Source of the DNA: Clostridiales bacterium
Lineage (GTDB): Bacteria > Bacillota > Clostridia > Christensenellales > Borkfalkiaceae
Assembly: GCA_015069565.1 (NCBI GenBank)
Contig: SVIJ01000012.1
Location: 1 to 36,560 of the forward strand
DNA length: 36,560 bases
Direction: 5' to 3'
The translations under genes and the position numbers were made by a program. The notes below the pieces were generated by a model, which saw only the letters and a list, made by a program, of their open reading frames with translations, ran no database searches and was not told the DNA's origin. This document shows positions 10,686 to 18,733 of the stretch, in pieces. Every line of letters starts with the position of its first letter. Position 1 is the stretch's first letter.

Positions 10686-12491
10686 ATGGTAAAAACGTTG
10701 TTAAAGAGCGTTCGCGAATACAAAAAACCTGCGATTATCACACCGATTTTCATGGTTTTGGAAGCCTTTTGCGAATGCTTGATTCCCTTTTTTATGGCAG
10801 AGCTGATCACCGCGATCAAGCCTGCGCCCGGCGCCGCGCCGCTCCCTGCGGACGAAGCGTTGCAGGTGGTGCTGTATTACGGCGCGATCTTGGTATTCTT
10901 GGCGGCGGTGTCCTTGACGAGCGGTGTTTTGGCAGGGCGGTTTGCCGCGACGGCAAGCTGTGGCTTTGCGAAGAACCTGCGCCACGACCTGTTCAATAAG
11001 GTACAGCGCTTCTCGTTCGCGAACGTCGATCGCTTTTCTACGTCGTCGCTCGTGACAAGATTGACGACGGACGTGACGAACGTACAGCAGTCCTTCCAGA
11101 TGTGCCTGCGTATCGTGATCCGCGTGCCGTTGCAGTTCATCTTTGCGATCATCATGAGCTTTACGATCAATCCCAAGCTGGCGTGGATTTTTGTGACGAT
11201 CGTCCCTTTCTTGGCGCTGATCATCATTTCGATTATGCGGTTCGTAATGCCTTTCTTCAAGCGCATCTTCAAAAAGTACGACGCTTTGAACGAATCAGTA
11301 CAGGAAAACGTCGGCGGTATCCGCGTTGTAAAATCCTTTGTCCGTGAAGACTACGAAACGGAAAAATTTAAGAAAGCAGCAGGGCAGGTACGCGACGACT
11401 TTACGAGAGCGGAAAAGGTAATCGCGCTCAACGGCCCTGTAATGACCCTGTTTATCAACTTTGCGTCTATTCTAATTTCCGCGTTCGCGGCGTACGCAAT
11501 CATTGACCCGAGCTTCTGGGCGGCGTACCCCGGCTTTGGCGAAGGGCAGCTCTCCGCGCTCATCTCGTACGGGATTCAAATGCTCTCGTGCTTGATGATG
11601 TTCTCGATGATTTTCGTTATGCTCTCGATGTCCTTGGAAGGGGGCAGACGTATTGCGGAAGTTTTGAATTGCGAATCGGATATCGTCAGCCCTGAAAACG
11701 CGGTGACGGAAGTGAAGGACGGCTCGGTTCGCTTTGAAGACGTGCGCTTTAAGTATTCCGTAGCGGCAGGCAAATACGCCTTGGATGATATCGACTTGGA
11801 AATTGCTTCGGGGGAAACGGTCGGCATTTTGGGGGGTACGGGCGCGTCGAAGACGACGCTCATACAGCTCATTCCCCGTCTGTACGACGCAACGGAAGGG
11901 GCGGTGTACGTCGGCGGCGTGAACGTCAAGGATTACGATTTGGACGTCCTTCGTAAGGAAGTGGCGGTCGTATTGCAAAAGAACGTGCTGTTCTCGGGTA
12001 CGATTAAGGAAAACCTGCGCTGGGGAAACCCCGACGCGAGCGACGAAGAGCTTGTCCGCGTGTGTAAGCTGGCGCAGGCGCATGAGTTTATCGAATCCTT
12101 CCCCGACGGCTACGATACCTATATCGAGCAGGGGGGTACGAACGTTTCAGGCGGTCAAAAACAGCGGCTTTGTATCGCGCGTGCGATTTTGCGTAAGCCC
12201 AAGGTACTCATCTTGGACGACAGTACGTCGGCGGTAGATACGAAGACGGACGCGTTTATCCGTCAGGCGTTCGCGGAAGAGATTCCCGATACGACGAAAA
12301 TTATCATTGCGCAGCGTGTGGGCTCTGTGGAAAAAGCGGATAAGATTTTGGTGCTTGAAGGCGGCAAGATTGTCGAGATGGGCAATCACGAAGCACTGAT
12401 GGCAAAGGGCGGCATTTATAGAGAGATTTACGAAGCGCAGACCAAGAGCAAGGGCGACGCTCCCGAAACGGAAGAAGGGGGTGACGAATAA
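10686..12491 (+). CDS. ABC exporter half-transporter, subunit with degenerate ATP site
   Basis: This 601-residue exporter half has six N-terminal membrane helices and a C-terminal nucleotide-binding domain. Its own site is altered. Walker A reads GGTGASKT (residues 383-390), with Ser388 where Gly is usual. Walker B ends in D511-D512, with Asp in place of the catalytic Glu. The switch His is Gln543 (IIAQR). The signature loop VSGGQ is intact. This pattern matches the non-catalytic site of heterodimeric exporters such as BmrCD or TM287/288. The stop TAA shares one base with the ATG of the partner gene, so expression is coupled. The substrate cannot be told from the sequence; drugs, lipids and peptides are all possible. 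Confidence 0.93.
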   Translation: MVKTLLKSVREYKKPAIITPIFMVLEAFCECLIPFFMAELITAIKPAPGAAPLPADEALQVVLYYGAILVFLAAVSLTSGVLAGRFAATASCGFAKNLRHDLFNKVQRFSFANVDRFSTSSLVTRLTTDVTNVQQSFQMCLRIVIRVPLQFIFAIIMSFTINPKLAWIFVTIVPFLALIIISIMRFVMPFFKRIFKKYDALNESVQENVGGIRVVKSFVREDYETEKFKKAAGQVRDDFTRAEKVIALNGPVMTLFINFASILISAFAAYAIIDPSFWAAYPGFGEGQLSALISYGIQMLSCLMMFSMIFVMLSMSLEGGRRIAEVLNCESDIVSPENAVTEVKDGSVRFEDVRFKYSVAAGKYALDDIDLEIASGETVGILGGTGASKTTLIQLIPRLYDATEGAVYVGGVNVKDYDLDVLRKEVAVVLQKNVLFSGTIKENLRWGNPDASDEELVRVCKLAQAHEFIESFPDGYDTYIEQGGTNVSGGQKQRLCIARAILRKPKVLILDDSTSAVDTKTDAFIRQAFAEEIPDTTKIIIAQRVGSVEKADKILVLEGGKIVEMGNHEALMAKGGIYREIYEAQTKSKGDAPETEEGGDE

Positions 12492-14473
12492 TGGCTACGG
12501 CAACGACAAGAAAACCGACGATGCCCAAGGGTCCGATGCGCGGCAGGGGAATGCCCACGCCGAAGGGCGCAATCAAAAAAGGAACGTTTGGACGGCTGAT
12601 GAAAATGCTGTTCAAATACTATAAATGGCGGATGATTTTGGTGTTCGCGTGCTTGATTTTTAGCGCGGCGGGAAGCCTTGTTTCGTCTATTTATATGCAG
12701 CAGGTAGTCGACAACGTAATCACGCCCGCGCTTGAAGCAGGCGGCATGACCAGCGAAATCGCGCAAACGCTGACGGGGCTCATCATTATGATGGTCGTCG
12801 TGTATTCGGCAGTGGTGCTCTCGTCGTTCGCGTATTCGCGGATTATGGCGGTCGTCACGCAGGGGATGCTGTATCATATTCGTGAAGAGATGTTCTCGAA
12901 GATGCAAAAGCTTCCCATCAAGTATTTCGATACGCACGCGCACGGCGATATCATGAGTAATTATACGAACGATACCGACGCGGTGCGCCAAATCATCGGG
13001 CAGAGTATGCCCAACCTGTTTTCCAACTCCTTGACGCTGGTGCTTTCGGTGGCGATGATGCTCACGTACAGCTTTTGGCTGTCGCTCGTTGTGCTGGTCA
13101 GCACGTTTGCGATGAGCCTTGTCGTCAAGAAAATCGGCGGCGGCAGCGCGAAGTATATGGTCGCACAGCAAACGTCGCTTGCGGTGGAAGAAGGGTTTGT
13201 GGAAGAGATGATGAAGGGGCAAAAGGTCGTTAAGGTCTTCACCCACGAAGAGCAGGCAAAGCAGGATTTCAATGCCTTGAACGAAAAGCTCTTCAAGGAC
13301 AGCGAGCGCGCGCACCAGTACGGCAACGTGCTCGGCCCGATTTTGGGCAATATCGGCAACTTCACGTACGTGCTTCTTTCCATTGTCGGGGCGCTTTTGT
13401 ATTCGCTGAACGTCCGCAACTATGGGCTTGGCAATATGTTCACGGGCGGCGAAGCGCTGGGAATCGGCGTAATCGTTTTGTTCCTTGGCACGTCCCGTCA
13501 CTTTGCGCAGATCGTCAACCAAATGTCCCAGCAGGTTTCCCTGATTGCAATGGGGCTTGCAGGTGCGAGCCGTATCTTCACGCTCATGGACGAAGAGCCC
13601 GAAGTGGACGACGGCTACGTGACCTTGGTATACGCAACCCATAATGCAAACGGCGAGCTTGTCGAAAGCGAGCAAAGAACGGGGCTTTGGGCGTGGAAGC
13701 ACTACCACAAGGCGGACGATACGACGACGTATACCGAACTCAAAGGCGACATCGTGATGGACATGGTGGATTTCTGCTACGTGCCTGAAAAGCAGGTGCT
13801 GACGGATATTACGCTCTATGCTCGGCCTGGGCAAAAGATAGCGTTTGTCGGCGCGACGGGCGCAGGAAAGACGACGATCACGAATCTCATCAATCGTTTC
13901 TACGACATCGCGGACGGCAAAATCCGCTACGACGGAATCAACATCAACAAGATCAAGAAAGCGGATTTGCGTAGATCCTTGGGGATCGTTTTGCAGGATA
14001 CCAACCTGTTTACGGGTACGGTTATGGAAAACATTCGCTACGGTAGGCTGGACGCTACGGACGAAGAATGTATCGAAGCGGCGAAGCTTGCCAACGCGCA
14101 TGATTTCATCACCCGTCTTCCCAACGGCTACAACACGATGCTGACGAACAACGGCGCAAACCTTTCGCAGGGTCAACGCCAGCTTTTGTCGATTGCAAGA
14201 GCGGAAGTTGCGGACGCGCCCGTGATGATTTTGGACGAAGCAACGTCCTCCATCGACACCCGTACCGAAGCTTTGGTGCAGGGGGGTATGGATCGACTGA
14301 TGAAGGGCAGAACGGTGTTTGTTATCGCGCACAGGCTTTCGACGGTTATGAACTCGGATGCGATCATGGTGCTCGATCACGGCAAGATCATCGAGCGTGG
14401 CACGCACGATCAGCTCATCGAACAGAAAGGGACGTATTATCAGTTGTATACAGGAGCATTTGAGTTAGAGTAA
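12491..14473 (+). CDS. ABC exporter half-transporter, partner subunit with canonical catalytic residues
   Basis: This is the 660-residue partner of the preceding gene. A basic, Pro/Gly-rich N-terminal tail precedes six membrane helices and the nucleotide-binding domain. Walker A GATGAGKT (454-461), Walker B LDE with catalytic Glu583, and the switch histidine (VIAHR) are all canonical. The signature is LSQGQ (558-562) instead of LSGGQ. In the dimer this altered signature faces the altered Walker A/B of the partner, so both deviations fall in the same ATP site. An extra segment of about 50 residues (GLWAWKHYHK region) links the membrane and ATPase parts. A hairpin array and a terminator follow the gene. 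Confidence 0.93.
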   Translation: MATATTRKPTMPKGPMRGRGMPTPKGAIKKGTFGRLMKMLFKYYKWRMILVFACLIFSAAGSLVSSIYMQQVVDNVITPALEAGGMTSEIAQTLTGLIIMMVVVYSAVVLSSFAYSRIMAVVTQGMLYHIREEMFSKMQKLPIKYFDTHAHGDIMSNYTNDTDAVRQIIGQSMPNLFSNSLTLVLSVAMMLTYSFWLSLVVLVSTFAMSLVVKKIGGGSAKYMVAQQTSLAVEEGFVEEMMKGQKVVKVFTHEEQAKQDFNALNEKLFKDSERAHQYGNVLGPILGNIGNFTYVLLSIVGALLYSLNVRNYGLGNMFTGGEALGIGVIVLFLGTSRHFAQIVNQMSQQVSLIAMGLAGASRIFTLMDEEPEVDDGYVTLVYATHNANGELVESEQRTGLWAWKHYHKADDTTTYTELKGDIVMDMVDFCYVPEKQVLTDITLYARPGQKIAFVGATGAGKTTITNLINRFYDIADGKIRYDGININKIKKADLRRSLGIVLQDTNLFTGTVMENIRYGRLDATDEECIEAAKLANAHDFITRLPNGYNTMLTNNGANLSQGQRQLLSIARAEVADAPVMILDEATSSIDTRTEALVQGGMDRLMKGRTVFVIAHRLSTVMNSDAIMVLDHGKIIERGTHDQLIEQKGTYYQLYTGAFELE

Positions 14474-14474
14474 A

Positions 14475-14563
14475 GTGAATTGCCCTGCGGGCGTGAATTG
14501 AAACCTGCGGTTTCGTGAATTGCGATTTTATCGCGTGAATTGACAGCGATGCTGTCGTTGCGG
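14475..14563 (+). repeat. Tandem hairpin array A (GTGAATT spacer)
   Basis: One base after the exporter stop, GTGAATTG occurs four times (14475, 14493, 14515, 14535). Each copy is followed by a perfect small palindrome: GCCC-tgc-GGGC (14482-14492), GAAACC-tgc-GGTTTC (14500-14514), GCGAT-ttt-ATCGC (14522-14534) and GACAGC-gat-GCTGTC (14542-14556). The array ends GTTGCGG. Array B at 18645 has the same plan. The palindromes do not match each other in sequence, but all pair fully. I do not recognise a named element. It could be a mobile REP/MITE-like repeat or a processed 3' UTR structure. Confidence 0.85.
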
Positions 14564-14610
14564 AAAAAATAAAAATGCTGGTAAATCCGTACATGGATAG
14601 GGCAAATATA

Positions 14611-14641
14611 AAAAAGAACGGTTAAAAAACCGTTCTTTTTT
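14611..14641. terminator. Bidirectional terminator between exporter and amino-acid importer operons
   Basis: AAAAAGAACGG (14611-14621) pairs with CCGTTCTTTTT (14630-14640). It serves the plus-strand exporter operon and the converging minus-strand importer operon. I see no gene in 14642-14713. Confidence 0.9.
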
Positions 14642-14713
14642 GTGTTATTCTTTCCATAACGCAAGGCGAATGTCTTGCAATTTACGAACGTGTAAACGTT
14701 CAATGCACTTCTC

Positions 14714-15649
14714 TTACGCAAGAACCTTTGAAAGGAATTCTTGCAAGCGTTCGTTCTTCGGGTTTTCGAAGAACTCCTTGGGGGGATTTTCTTCCTTGAT
14801 AATCCCTTCGTCGATGAAGATGATGCGGTCGGCAACTTCCTTCGCAAAGCCCATTTCATGGGTGACGATTACCATCGTCATGCCTTCGTGGGCAACTTCC
14901 TTCATCAGCTCGAGAACTTCCCCAACCATTTCGGGGTCGAGCGCGGAAGTCGGCTCGTCAAAGAGCATCACTTCGGGCTCCATAGCAAGCGCTCTCACGA
15001 TCGCGATACGTTGTTTTTGACCGCCTGACAGGGTAGCAGGGTAGGCGTTTGCCTTATCCGCAAGCCCGATACGCTCCAACAGTTCCATTGCCTTTTTTTC
15101 TGCTTCTTCTGGCGTTTTCAGTTTCAGCATCACGGGGGCAAGGGTCAAGTTTTTCAAAATCGTCAAATTGTTGAACAGATTGAAATGCTGGAATACCATT
15201 CCCACCTTTTGACGGGCAAGATTGATGTTGATATAGCACTCTTGAAACAGTGCCTTGATAGCCTGTTTATATTCCTTGCCTTCCCTGCCAGCTTTTTCGC
15301 TCAACAAGTCTTTTGCTTTGATTTCCTTGATAACCGCCGCATCTATTTCTTCGTCGGTGAGCTCGCCGCCGTCGGCTTTCAGCTTTGCAAACATCGTCTT
15401 GTAGGTTTTAGAAAGGCGGATGATGTCAAAGTGCAGGTAGGGGTCAATGGGGGTAAGAAGCTTATCTTCCAACCAAATTTCCCCATAGGTAGGGGTTTCG
15501 AGCAGGTTCATACAACGCAAAAGCGTGCTTTTCCCACTGCCTGACGGGCCAATGATGACGACCTTTTCCCCTTGTTTAATCTCACAGCTAACGCCTTTGA
15601 GTACTTGAACCTTGTCAAAATTCTTATAAATATTTTTAACGTTGATCAC
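14714..15649 (-). CDS. Amino-acid ABC importer ATPase (GlnQ/HisP type) with a large insertion
   Basis: This 311-residue ATPase powers uptake with the upstream permease and binding protein. Walker A GPSGSGKS (34-41), Q-loop Gln154 in [10 protein letters not shown], signature LSGGQ, and Walker [11 protein letters not shown] are all intact, so it should be active. The family is normally about 240 residues. Here roughly 75 extra, highly charged, helix-prone residues (about 66-142) sit between the N-terminal beta sheet and the Q-loop. The start is GTG at 15649, with AAGGAG 11 bases upstream. It overlaps the end of the permease gene by 14 bases. The expected substrate is a polar amino acid, by family only. 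Confidence 0.93.
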
Positions 15650-18637: not shown

Positions 18638-18644
18638 TAAAAAG

Positions 18645-18733
18645 CGAATTGTCCTATCGGACGTGAATTGACGGCGTTCCGTCGTGAATTGCGATTTCAT
18701 CGCGTGAATTGCAAACTTGAGTTTGCGTTGTGG
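18645..18733 (+). repeat. Tandem hairpin array B (GTGAATT spacer)
   Basis: Starting a few bases after the tgt stop, GCGAATT and then three GTGAATT copies (18663, 18684, 18704) alternate with perfect palindromes: GTCC-tatc-GGAC (18651-18662), GACGG-cgtt-CCGTC (18670-18683), GCGAT-ttc-ATCGC (18691-18703) and GCAAAC-ttga-GTTTGC (18711-18726). The array ends GTTGTGG. It has four units like array A. The third stem is identical to the third of array A, while the other stems differ but still pair fully. Confidence 0.85.

Follow-up and report, generated by a model that had tools for sequence, protein, structure and literature searches.

Mini-hairpins on a constant GTGAATT linker: a probable gene-less copy of an IVP-type mobile element in a Clostridiales genome

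The intervening-sequence protein (IVP) of bacterial 23S rRNA may be similar to the Avd protein of diversity-generating retroelements and is not known to have catalytic activity. Intervening sequences (IVS) with their IVP are known as selfish elements; the hairpin-array form, the gene-less multiplication and the general inverted-heptad ends dealt with here appear not to have been described. Likewise, no description of hairpin-array elements tied to IVP was found in the open-licence literature, and other papers could hold one. In sections of one report the function and origin of the rRNA intervening-sequence protein are said to remain unclear, and the IVS of Coxiella is described there as featuring a 28-bp terminal stem, GACAGAT heptamers before the S23p ORF and excision by RNase III (PMC4990558). 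The same sections cite the S23p of Xanthomonas as a pentamer of four-helix bundles (PMC4990558).

The window, i.e., the whole analysed stretch of 36,560 nucleotides from a Clostridiales genome (G000; 1.27 Mb, 82.8% complete), holds at positions 14475-14563 the array GTGAATT-GCCC(TGC)GGGC-GTGAATT-GAAACC(TGC)GGTTTC-GTGAATT-GCGAT(TTT)ATCGC-GTGAATT-GACAGC(GAT)GCTGTC-GTTGCGG. The claim of the first-pass annotation that four perfect mini-hairpins with stems of 4-6 bp and 3-base loops are joined here by an invariant GTGAATT was confirmed: the stems comprise 4, 6, 5 and 6 bp, pairing is perfect throughout, all loops have 3 bases, and an arithmetic estimate puts the chance of the 21 stem pairs at about 4^-21. 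Its description as the opposite of a CRISPR, with a constant linker and variable self-complementary stems, also holds, as does the position directly after a stop codon, the array beginning one base past the TAA of an ABC gene. In agreement with the failure to recognise a named element, no Rfam match was obtained in the window or in seven scanned element loci, except for an unrelated T-box in one of the latter (L190). The array is a real object, but it constitutes only the left arm of a two-armed inverted element. This whole element spans 14475-14708 and consists of four GTGAATT-hairpin units, the GTTGCGG core and an inverted, decayed right arm (14652-14708, including its core half; Table 1). 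It is located between two ABC genes and not in an rRNA gene, and the convergent GlnQ-like ORF lies 5 nt beyond its right end. The copy contains no IVP gene, and its genome gave no PF05635 match. By eye and in the modelled RNA fold, the additional inverted repeat in its core appears terminator-like. In the predicted RNA fold of the window copy the left hairpins form, while the arm-to-arm spine hardly pairs. For the second, partial element no right arm was recognised.

Table 1. Coordinates of the window element, its parts and its neighbours
Feature	Position	Strand	Remark
ABC transporter gene	12491..14473	+	best matches MsbA-like, under equivalog cut-offs
Left arm	14475..14556	+	four GTGAATT-hairpin units
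Left-arm GTGAATT linkers	14475-14481, 14493-14499, 14515-14521, 14535-14541	+	
Left-arm hairpins	14482-14492, 14500-14514, 14522-14534, 14542-14556	+	
GTTGCGG	14557..14563	+	left half of core motif
Core	14564..14651	none	longer than in other copies
Extra inverted repeat within core	14610-14641		between A run and T run
TTCCATAAC	14652..14660	+	right half of core motif
Decayed right arm	14661..14708	-	two of the usual four units
Right-arm hairpin GCAAGGCGAATGTCTTGC	14661-14678		then AATTTAC, 14679-14685
Right-arm hairpin GAACGTGTAAACGTTC	14686-14701		then AATGCAC, 14702-14708
Amino-acid ABC ATPase ORF	14714..15649	-	best match GlnQ, under its cut-off
Second, partial element	18644..18733	+	one GCGAATT-hairpin and three GTGAATT-hairpin units, then GTTGTGG

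Contrary to two possibilities named in the first-pass annotation, the copies are not confined to this locus and the palindromes are enriched. The pattern GTGAATT-N..-GTGAATT, which demands no hairpin, occurs in the own genome 85 times forward and 74 times reverse, i.e., in 159 pairs, and the reversed-pattern control occurs 0 times. Without any hairpin selection, the gap of exact GTGAATT pairs in the stretches analysed holds a perfect stem of at least 4 bp in 91 of 102 cases for G000, 58 of 76 for G035 and 16 of 20 for G028. A chance origin of the arrays was ruled out by the number of pairs compared with the control, by the relatives and by the hairpin-filled gaps. At least one pair was detected in 22 of the 61 relatives and in 28 of the 57 genus genomes, although some genomes with a single hit, G002 and G034 among them, show no hairpin there; 14 of the 57 genus genomes feature at least 10 pairs and are termed element-rich in the following. 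Another family of the same order is represented by G051 with 28 pairs. Between species of one genus, occurrence is patchy.

A scan of 84,980 species genomes revealed at least 109 stretches with the pattern, and the matches taken as true, among the matches listed, bear Clostridia titles, many of them from ruminant guts. GTGAATT repeats at 17 other inspected loci (cyanobacteria, Bacteroidetes, Verrucomicrobia, Rossellomorea, other bacteria and three viral contigs) were rejected as other tandem repeats, this architecture being absent from them. In addition, no IVP was found in 23 loci with repeats of this kind by a profile of 67 IVP ORFs, which does recover known IVPs. Bacteroidetes-type contigs (L057, L060, L115) feature plain tandem GTGAATT/GTGAATC heptads with neither hairpins nor IVP within the 8-kb loci. 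In other Clostridia, single, non-inverted GTGAATT hairpin arrays occur directly before gene starts (L051, 2585-2773; L110), with one array ahead of each of three tandem paralogous genes in L110. Besides, a different repeat of about 120 bp or more with inverted ends, starting like AAAACGACGTATATACTTCGCAATACTGCGTC and ending like CTTGCTCGTATCTCCGCCGTTTTA, is present in many genus genomes and sits right after stop codons, namely in glnS gaps (L374, L376, L384, L396, L400) and after the ABC gene (L299-L301, L304). In the own genome, a further repeat resembling GTCATCCTGAGCGTAGCCGAAGGATCTC is situated next to elements or separates them (L172, L164).

The architecture was read from 38 stretches around GTGAATT pairs in three genomes (G000, G035, G028) plus the window. 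An intact copy is composed of four GTGAATT-hairpin units, GTTRYGGAA, a short AT-rich stretch, TTCCRYAAC and four hairpin-AATTCAC units, and eight intact copies of one family measure 211-215 bp with 4+4 hairpins and without a gene. The core GTTRYGG...CCRYAAC is common to the copies, and its motif GTTRYGG(A)A comes after the fourth hairpin in most parsed arms. A reading as a lone array was ruled out by the inverted second arms. Among the 78 parsed arms of the three genomes, 62 hold four hairpins, 10 three, 4 five and 2 six, some of the three-hairpin arms being parser cuts. The parser itself seeks hairpins and accepts linkers with up to 2 mismatches, so that parsed-arm counts describe units selected in this way: exact linkers in 273 of 310 cases, perfect stems of at least 4 bp in 264 of 306 hairpins and 3-base loops in 186 of these 264. 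Across the stretches of all three genomes, a perfect palindrome is enclosed by 165 of 198 exact GTGAATT pairs. The parsed copies feature 50 distinct stems in G000, 31 in G035 and 16 in G028, some of which recur at different arm positions and across genomes. For 51 of 72 arms, the terminal base of the outer flank is an A, and no target-site duplication was seen by eye at the element flanks. Hairpin arrays on a GCGATAT linker (L373, L163, L173, L174) form a second family of the same plan in the own genome.

A long form of the element encloses a gene. At one locus (L112, the same place as L231), a distance of 0.4 kb separates the arms, and the core halves bracket a gene whose product matches PF05635 (23S rRNA-intervening sequence protein, E=2.1e-26) as well as TIGR02436 ('four helix bundle protein'), the nearest solved structure being 2rld (E=1.2e-30). 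Within the genus, 28 IVP matches, one of them below the cut-off, were obtained in 21 of 57 genomes. GTGAATT-type arms enclose the IVP gene in G006, G028, G331, G340 and, with degenerate linkers, G030. At other IVP genes the same plan is realized with the linkers ATGAATT, GTGAAGT, GTTATAT and GCGATAT, and these arms surround the gene or form a two-armed element just before its start. A strict detector calling at least three perfect hairpins on a repeated linker was positive at 15 of the 28 genus IVP loci and negative at 13, with two loci cut by contig ends; it responded to 2 of 116 control stretches, 0 of 56 shuffles and 0 of 30 stretches from 15 loci of Y1 transposases, not all of which are immediate flanks, as some loci are truncated. 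The window array thus probably represents a non-autonomous, gene-less derivative of a mobile element of IVP type, with mini-hairpins set between the heptads. The relation of the elements to the IVP-type element is well supported, and we infer that IVP moves the gene-less copies in trans.

All five GTGAATT-armed IVP elements lie at one site, just before glnS, and therefore movement of the full-length form was not seen directly. Among 30 inspected glnS loci, own genome included, three carry the IVP element (G006, G028, G030), and those of G035 and G009 seem to keep AATTCAC remnants of it. Both this common site and the lack of a PF05635 match in seven of the 14 element-rich genus genomes (G000, G008, G014, G022, G035, which is 93% complete, G036 and G336) would suit a miniature element moved by another transposase, with IVP as a passenger acquired by some copies in their core. 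Nevertheless, IVP with other linkers and in other phyla is repeatedly accompanied by inverted 7-nt or hairpin arms, which is unexpected for a chance passenger, and no gene common to the element-rich genomes was found (Y1, IVP and RVT_1 tested), so that we consider a passenger role rather unlikely. Still, the seven genomes lacking an IVP match, the own one included, speak against a simple master-copy story. Possession of any IVP is not predictive of many copies (p 0.195 for element-rich genomes among the 57 of the genus). At least 10 pairs were present in 4 of 5 genomes with a GTGAATT-armed IVP versus 10 of 52 others (p 0.011, with the IVP element itself contributing pairs to these counts), and a GTGAATT-armed IVP weakly predicts many copies.

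Beyond the genus, 44 of 249 phylum genomes yielded IVP. At 15 of 29 testable loci of this sample, both IVP flanks feature a period of 7 nt (at least 70% match), and periods of 4-6 and 8-13 were present in both flanks at 0-2 loci; the period-7 controls amounted to 0 of 24, 11, 29 and 4. In other phyla, period 7 marked both flanks at 8 of 23 loci, drawn from genomes picked for holding GTGAATT repeats and hence not representative. Within the genus and order set, both sides showed this period at 1 of 29 IVP loci, as expected if hairpins separate the heptads. An exact-7-mer test, which misses degenerate linkers, was positive for 9 of 24 usable IVP loci, compared with 0 of 13 for Y1 loci and 1 of 34 for offset places. 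Moreover, 17 of 52 IVP loci reached an inverted-repeat score of at least 14, while the highest score was 12 among 32 Y1 loci and 13 among 168 random places. At loci picked by eye, IVP lies inside structured RNAs, i.e., LSU rRNA (four loci) and, in one genus, RNase P RNA (two loci), and in 6 of 6 the gene runs in the sense of the host RNA. The IVP genes in RNase P RNA genes (L272, L275) share the strand of the RNA and possess heptad arms. A period of 11 was found at two IVP loci, and the IVP genes of L269 and L271 are flanked, by eye, by 11-nt unit repeats (like GTTAAACGATA). Since IVP flanks feature an inverted arrangement and a 7-nt period, and the Coxiella IVS carries heptamers, the linker is read as the heptad of an IVP-type element and the array as a series of such heptads with mini-hairpins in between.

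With respect to the moving enzyme, a mechanism of REP/RAYT type, in which single-stranded DNA hairpins are moved by a Y1 (TnpA-REP) transposase, was also considered. Tagged palindromes which are intergenic, often form inverted pairs and occur in many copies are found here as in the REPs described in part of PMC3733652, and Y1 matches were obtained in the element-rich G014, G022 and G036 and weakly (E 3.9e-4) in G000. However, among the 61 relatives no Y1 match was present in the element-rich G006, G008, G017, G020, G028 and G035, nor in G051, and with 4 of 10 element-rich versus 9 of 27 other genus genomes Y1 does not track the elements. A chain of hairpins on a repeated linker was present in 0 of the 30 stretches from the 15 Y1 loci (not all of them immediate flanks), and here GTGAATT serves as the tag, combined with palindromes of no fixed sequence. 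We regard this mechanism as highly improbable. A reverse transcriptase as partner was rejected as well: RVT_1, with matches in 12 of 61 relatives including the element-rich G014 and none in G000, G006, G022, G028, G035 and G051, does not track the elements. IVP was the only candidate partner found among the genes tested, i.e., Y1, IVP and RVT_1.

The genomic contexts of 50 elements comprise 20 tandem, 10 convergent and 8 divergent gaps, 11 overlaps with a predicted ORF and one edge, and no orientation rule is apparent; nearby ORF pairs as background are 79 tandem, 29 convergent and 33 divergent. The tie to stop codons drawn in the first-pass annotation is accordingly one of proximity only. The arrays could be thought of as RNA parts useful to the host, such as bidirectional terminators or mRNA stabilisers, maintained by selection for structure, as many copies are found near T runs and stop codons, a terminator-like inverted repeat is present in the core of the window copy itself, and strong folding is predicted. 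Yet this is quite improbable: the tandem, convergent and divergent contexts resemble those of the background pairs, the elements are patchy between species, and the 330 nt that follow this ABC gene contain no hairpin array in any of the 29 relatives whose locus was analysed, two of which have one lone heptamer. As the sequence 3' of this gene differs among relatives, no empty site for the window copy was recovered.

For comparison of copies within one family, eight were aligned, two of ten candidates having been dropped (one lacking a unit, one truncated). Pairwise, the linkers differ by 1.8%, the stems by 5.8%, the core by 12.7% and the loops by 48%, and the earlier wording of freely changing stems has to be withdrawn for such a family. 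The few linker differences suggest that the copies have decayed little since insertion, and thus the loop differences would mostly have arisen in the active lineage or by exchange from copy to copy. The copies look mosaic: L169 and L171 agree through to the sixth hairpin except for one core base and differ beyond, and the altered seventh hairpin of L171 is common to L170. The right flank of L170 and the left flank of L171 feature 16 identical bases outside the ends, the two elements lying about 5 kb apart in opposite orientation; this may reflect sequence exchange from one copy to the other or insertion of both next to a further repeat that they have in common.

In the same eight copies, 96.9% of cells pair in the proposed fold. 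Both-sided changes affect 4 of 85 pairs, a number reached by 18 of 500 shuffles, and occupy 6 cells versus a shuffle mean of 1.6, with 0 of 500 shuffles reaching 6. All of them are situated within hairpins and none in the linker spine, for whose pairs no compensatory change was found among the eight copies of this family. The number of pair types, 7 versus 7.1, is not above that of the shuffles. The stem pairs covary a little, and selection on structure, as put forward in the first-pass annotation, is probable. As single-stranded DNA, an intact copy is predicted to adopt a fold of nested four-way junctions, each flanked by hairpins on both sides (free energy -61.4 kcal/mol, z -8.6), from which its predicted RNA fold differs.

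The perfect palindromes might also originate from replication template-switching (hairpin correction) together with slippage of units instead of structural selection. Whole units are indeed lost or tandemly multiplied, as L165 lacks one unit and L407 (G331:C40) has a ten-hairpin left arm, in which two hairpin kinds alternate before a different last one and the units multiply in tandem. Nevertheless, linkers and stems are conserved while loops change, and the hairpin number is mostly held at four, which leaves little probability for this origin on its own, although template-switching may act in addition to mobility. The replication mechanism making new palindromes that had been suggested at first found no support in hairpin inversion, with 36 reverse-complement loop pairs versus 29.4 expected.

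For a gene-less copy of an IVP-type element, the following course may be proposed. Full-length relatives carry the same kind of arms with the IVP gene in the core, whereas the short form is devoid of the gene and has multiplied. The heptads of both arms could pair on single-stranded DNA or RNA, and four stacked four-way junctions with a hairpin at each side would close the element into a compact tree. IVP, as a pentameric four-helix bundle, might bind this end structure and move the element in trans, with cutting and joining steps borrowed from host replication or repair, which are proposed because no dedicated enzyme was found. More tentatively, the elements could represent an unrecognised class of mobile elements driven by the IVP four-helix-bundle protein and not by a transposase or reverse transcriptase. 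Such a class would feature inverted heptad-array ends, which in this lineage the mini-hairpins would open out to form a ladder of four-way junctions. The rRNA intervening sequences would be its best-known insertions. Through this link, IVP gains a repeated, easily recognisable partner of DNA or RNA, the inverted 7-nt arrays, which occurs in several phyla and outside the rRNA context, as well as a lineage in which gene-less copies have multiplied; the binding, processing and mobility of IVP are thereby opened to direct tests. The link would further account for one class of repeats, built of hairpins and heptads, in uncultured Clostridia of the gut, and it connects a hitherto unexplained repeat with a possible new mode of DNA spread in bacteria.

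Among described systems, a CRISPR array differs in that the variable parts are mostly perfect palindromes here (165/198 exact pairs). The TAACTGA heptamer direct repeats of Beggiatoaceae likewise feature seven-base units in many intergenic sets, but in the sections concerned they are nearly all direct, with one inverted set (PMC4679880); the terms S23, intervening and four helix are absent from the main text of that paper (PMC4679880). In their short, gene-less form, inverted ends and many copies (159 pairs in 1.27 Mb), the elements resemble MITEs. The BrickBuilt MITE of Porphyromonas gingivalis, according to the part of PMC4596501 concerned, is also short, gene-less, repetitive and intergenic with internal repeat units; these are 23-nt direct repeats without spacers, whereas the present elements have a hairpin array in either arm, with IVP as their proposed partner. 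REP/REPIN elements with RAYT share the tagged, intergenic palindromes in often inverted pairs (PMC3733652, in part) but carry a GTAG or CGTC tag on a conserved palindrome, whereas here the seven-base linker GTGAATT is repeated between several unlike hairpins with many distinct stems, and Y1 does not track the elements. The IVS of bacterial 23S rRNA differ from the present elements, which are intergenic, have mini-hairpins between the heptads, are gene-less and reach tens of copies per genome. Nevertheless, the IVS have in common with them the IVP ORF of the full-length relatives (PF05635, TIGR02436) and inverted terminal repeats forming a compact stem, represented here by the inverted arms and the predicted DNA fold of an intact copy. 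The 28-bp stem given for Coxiella in the sections cited above matches four linkers of 7 nt in length, which also comprise 28.
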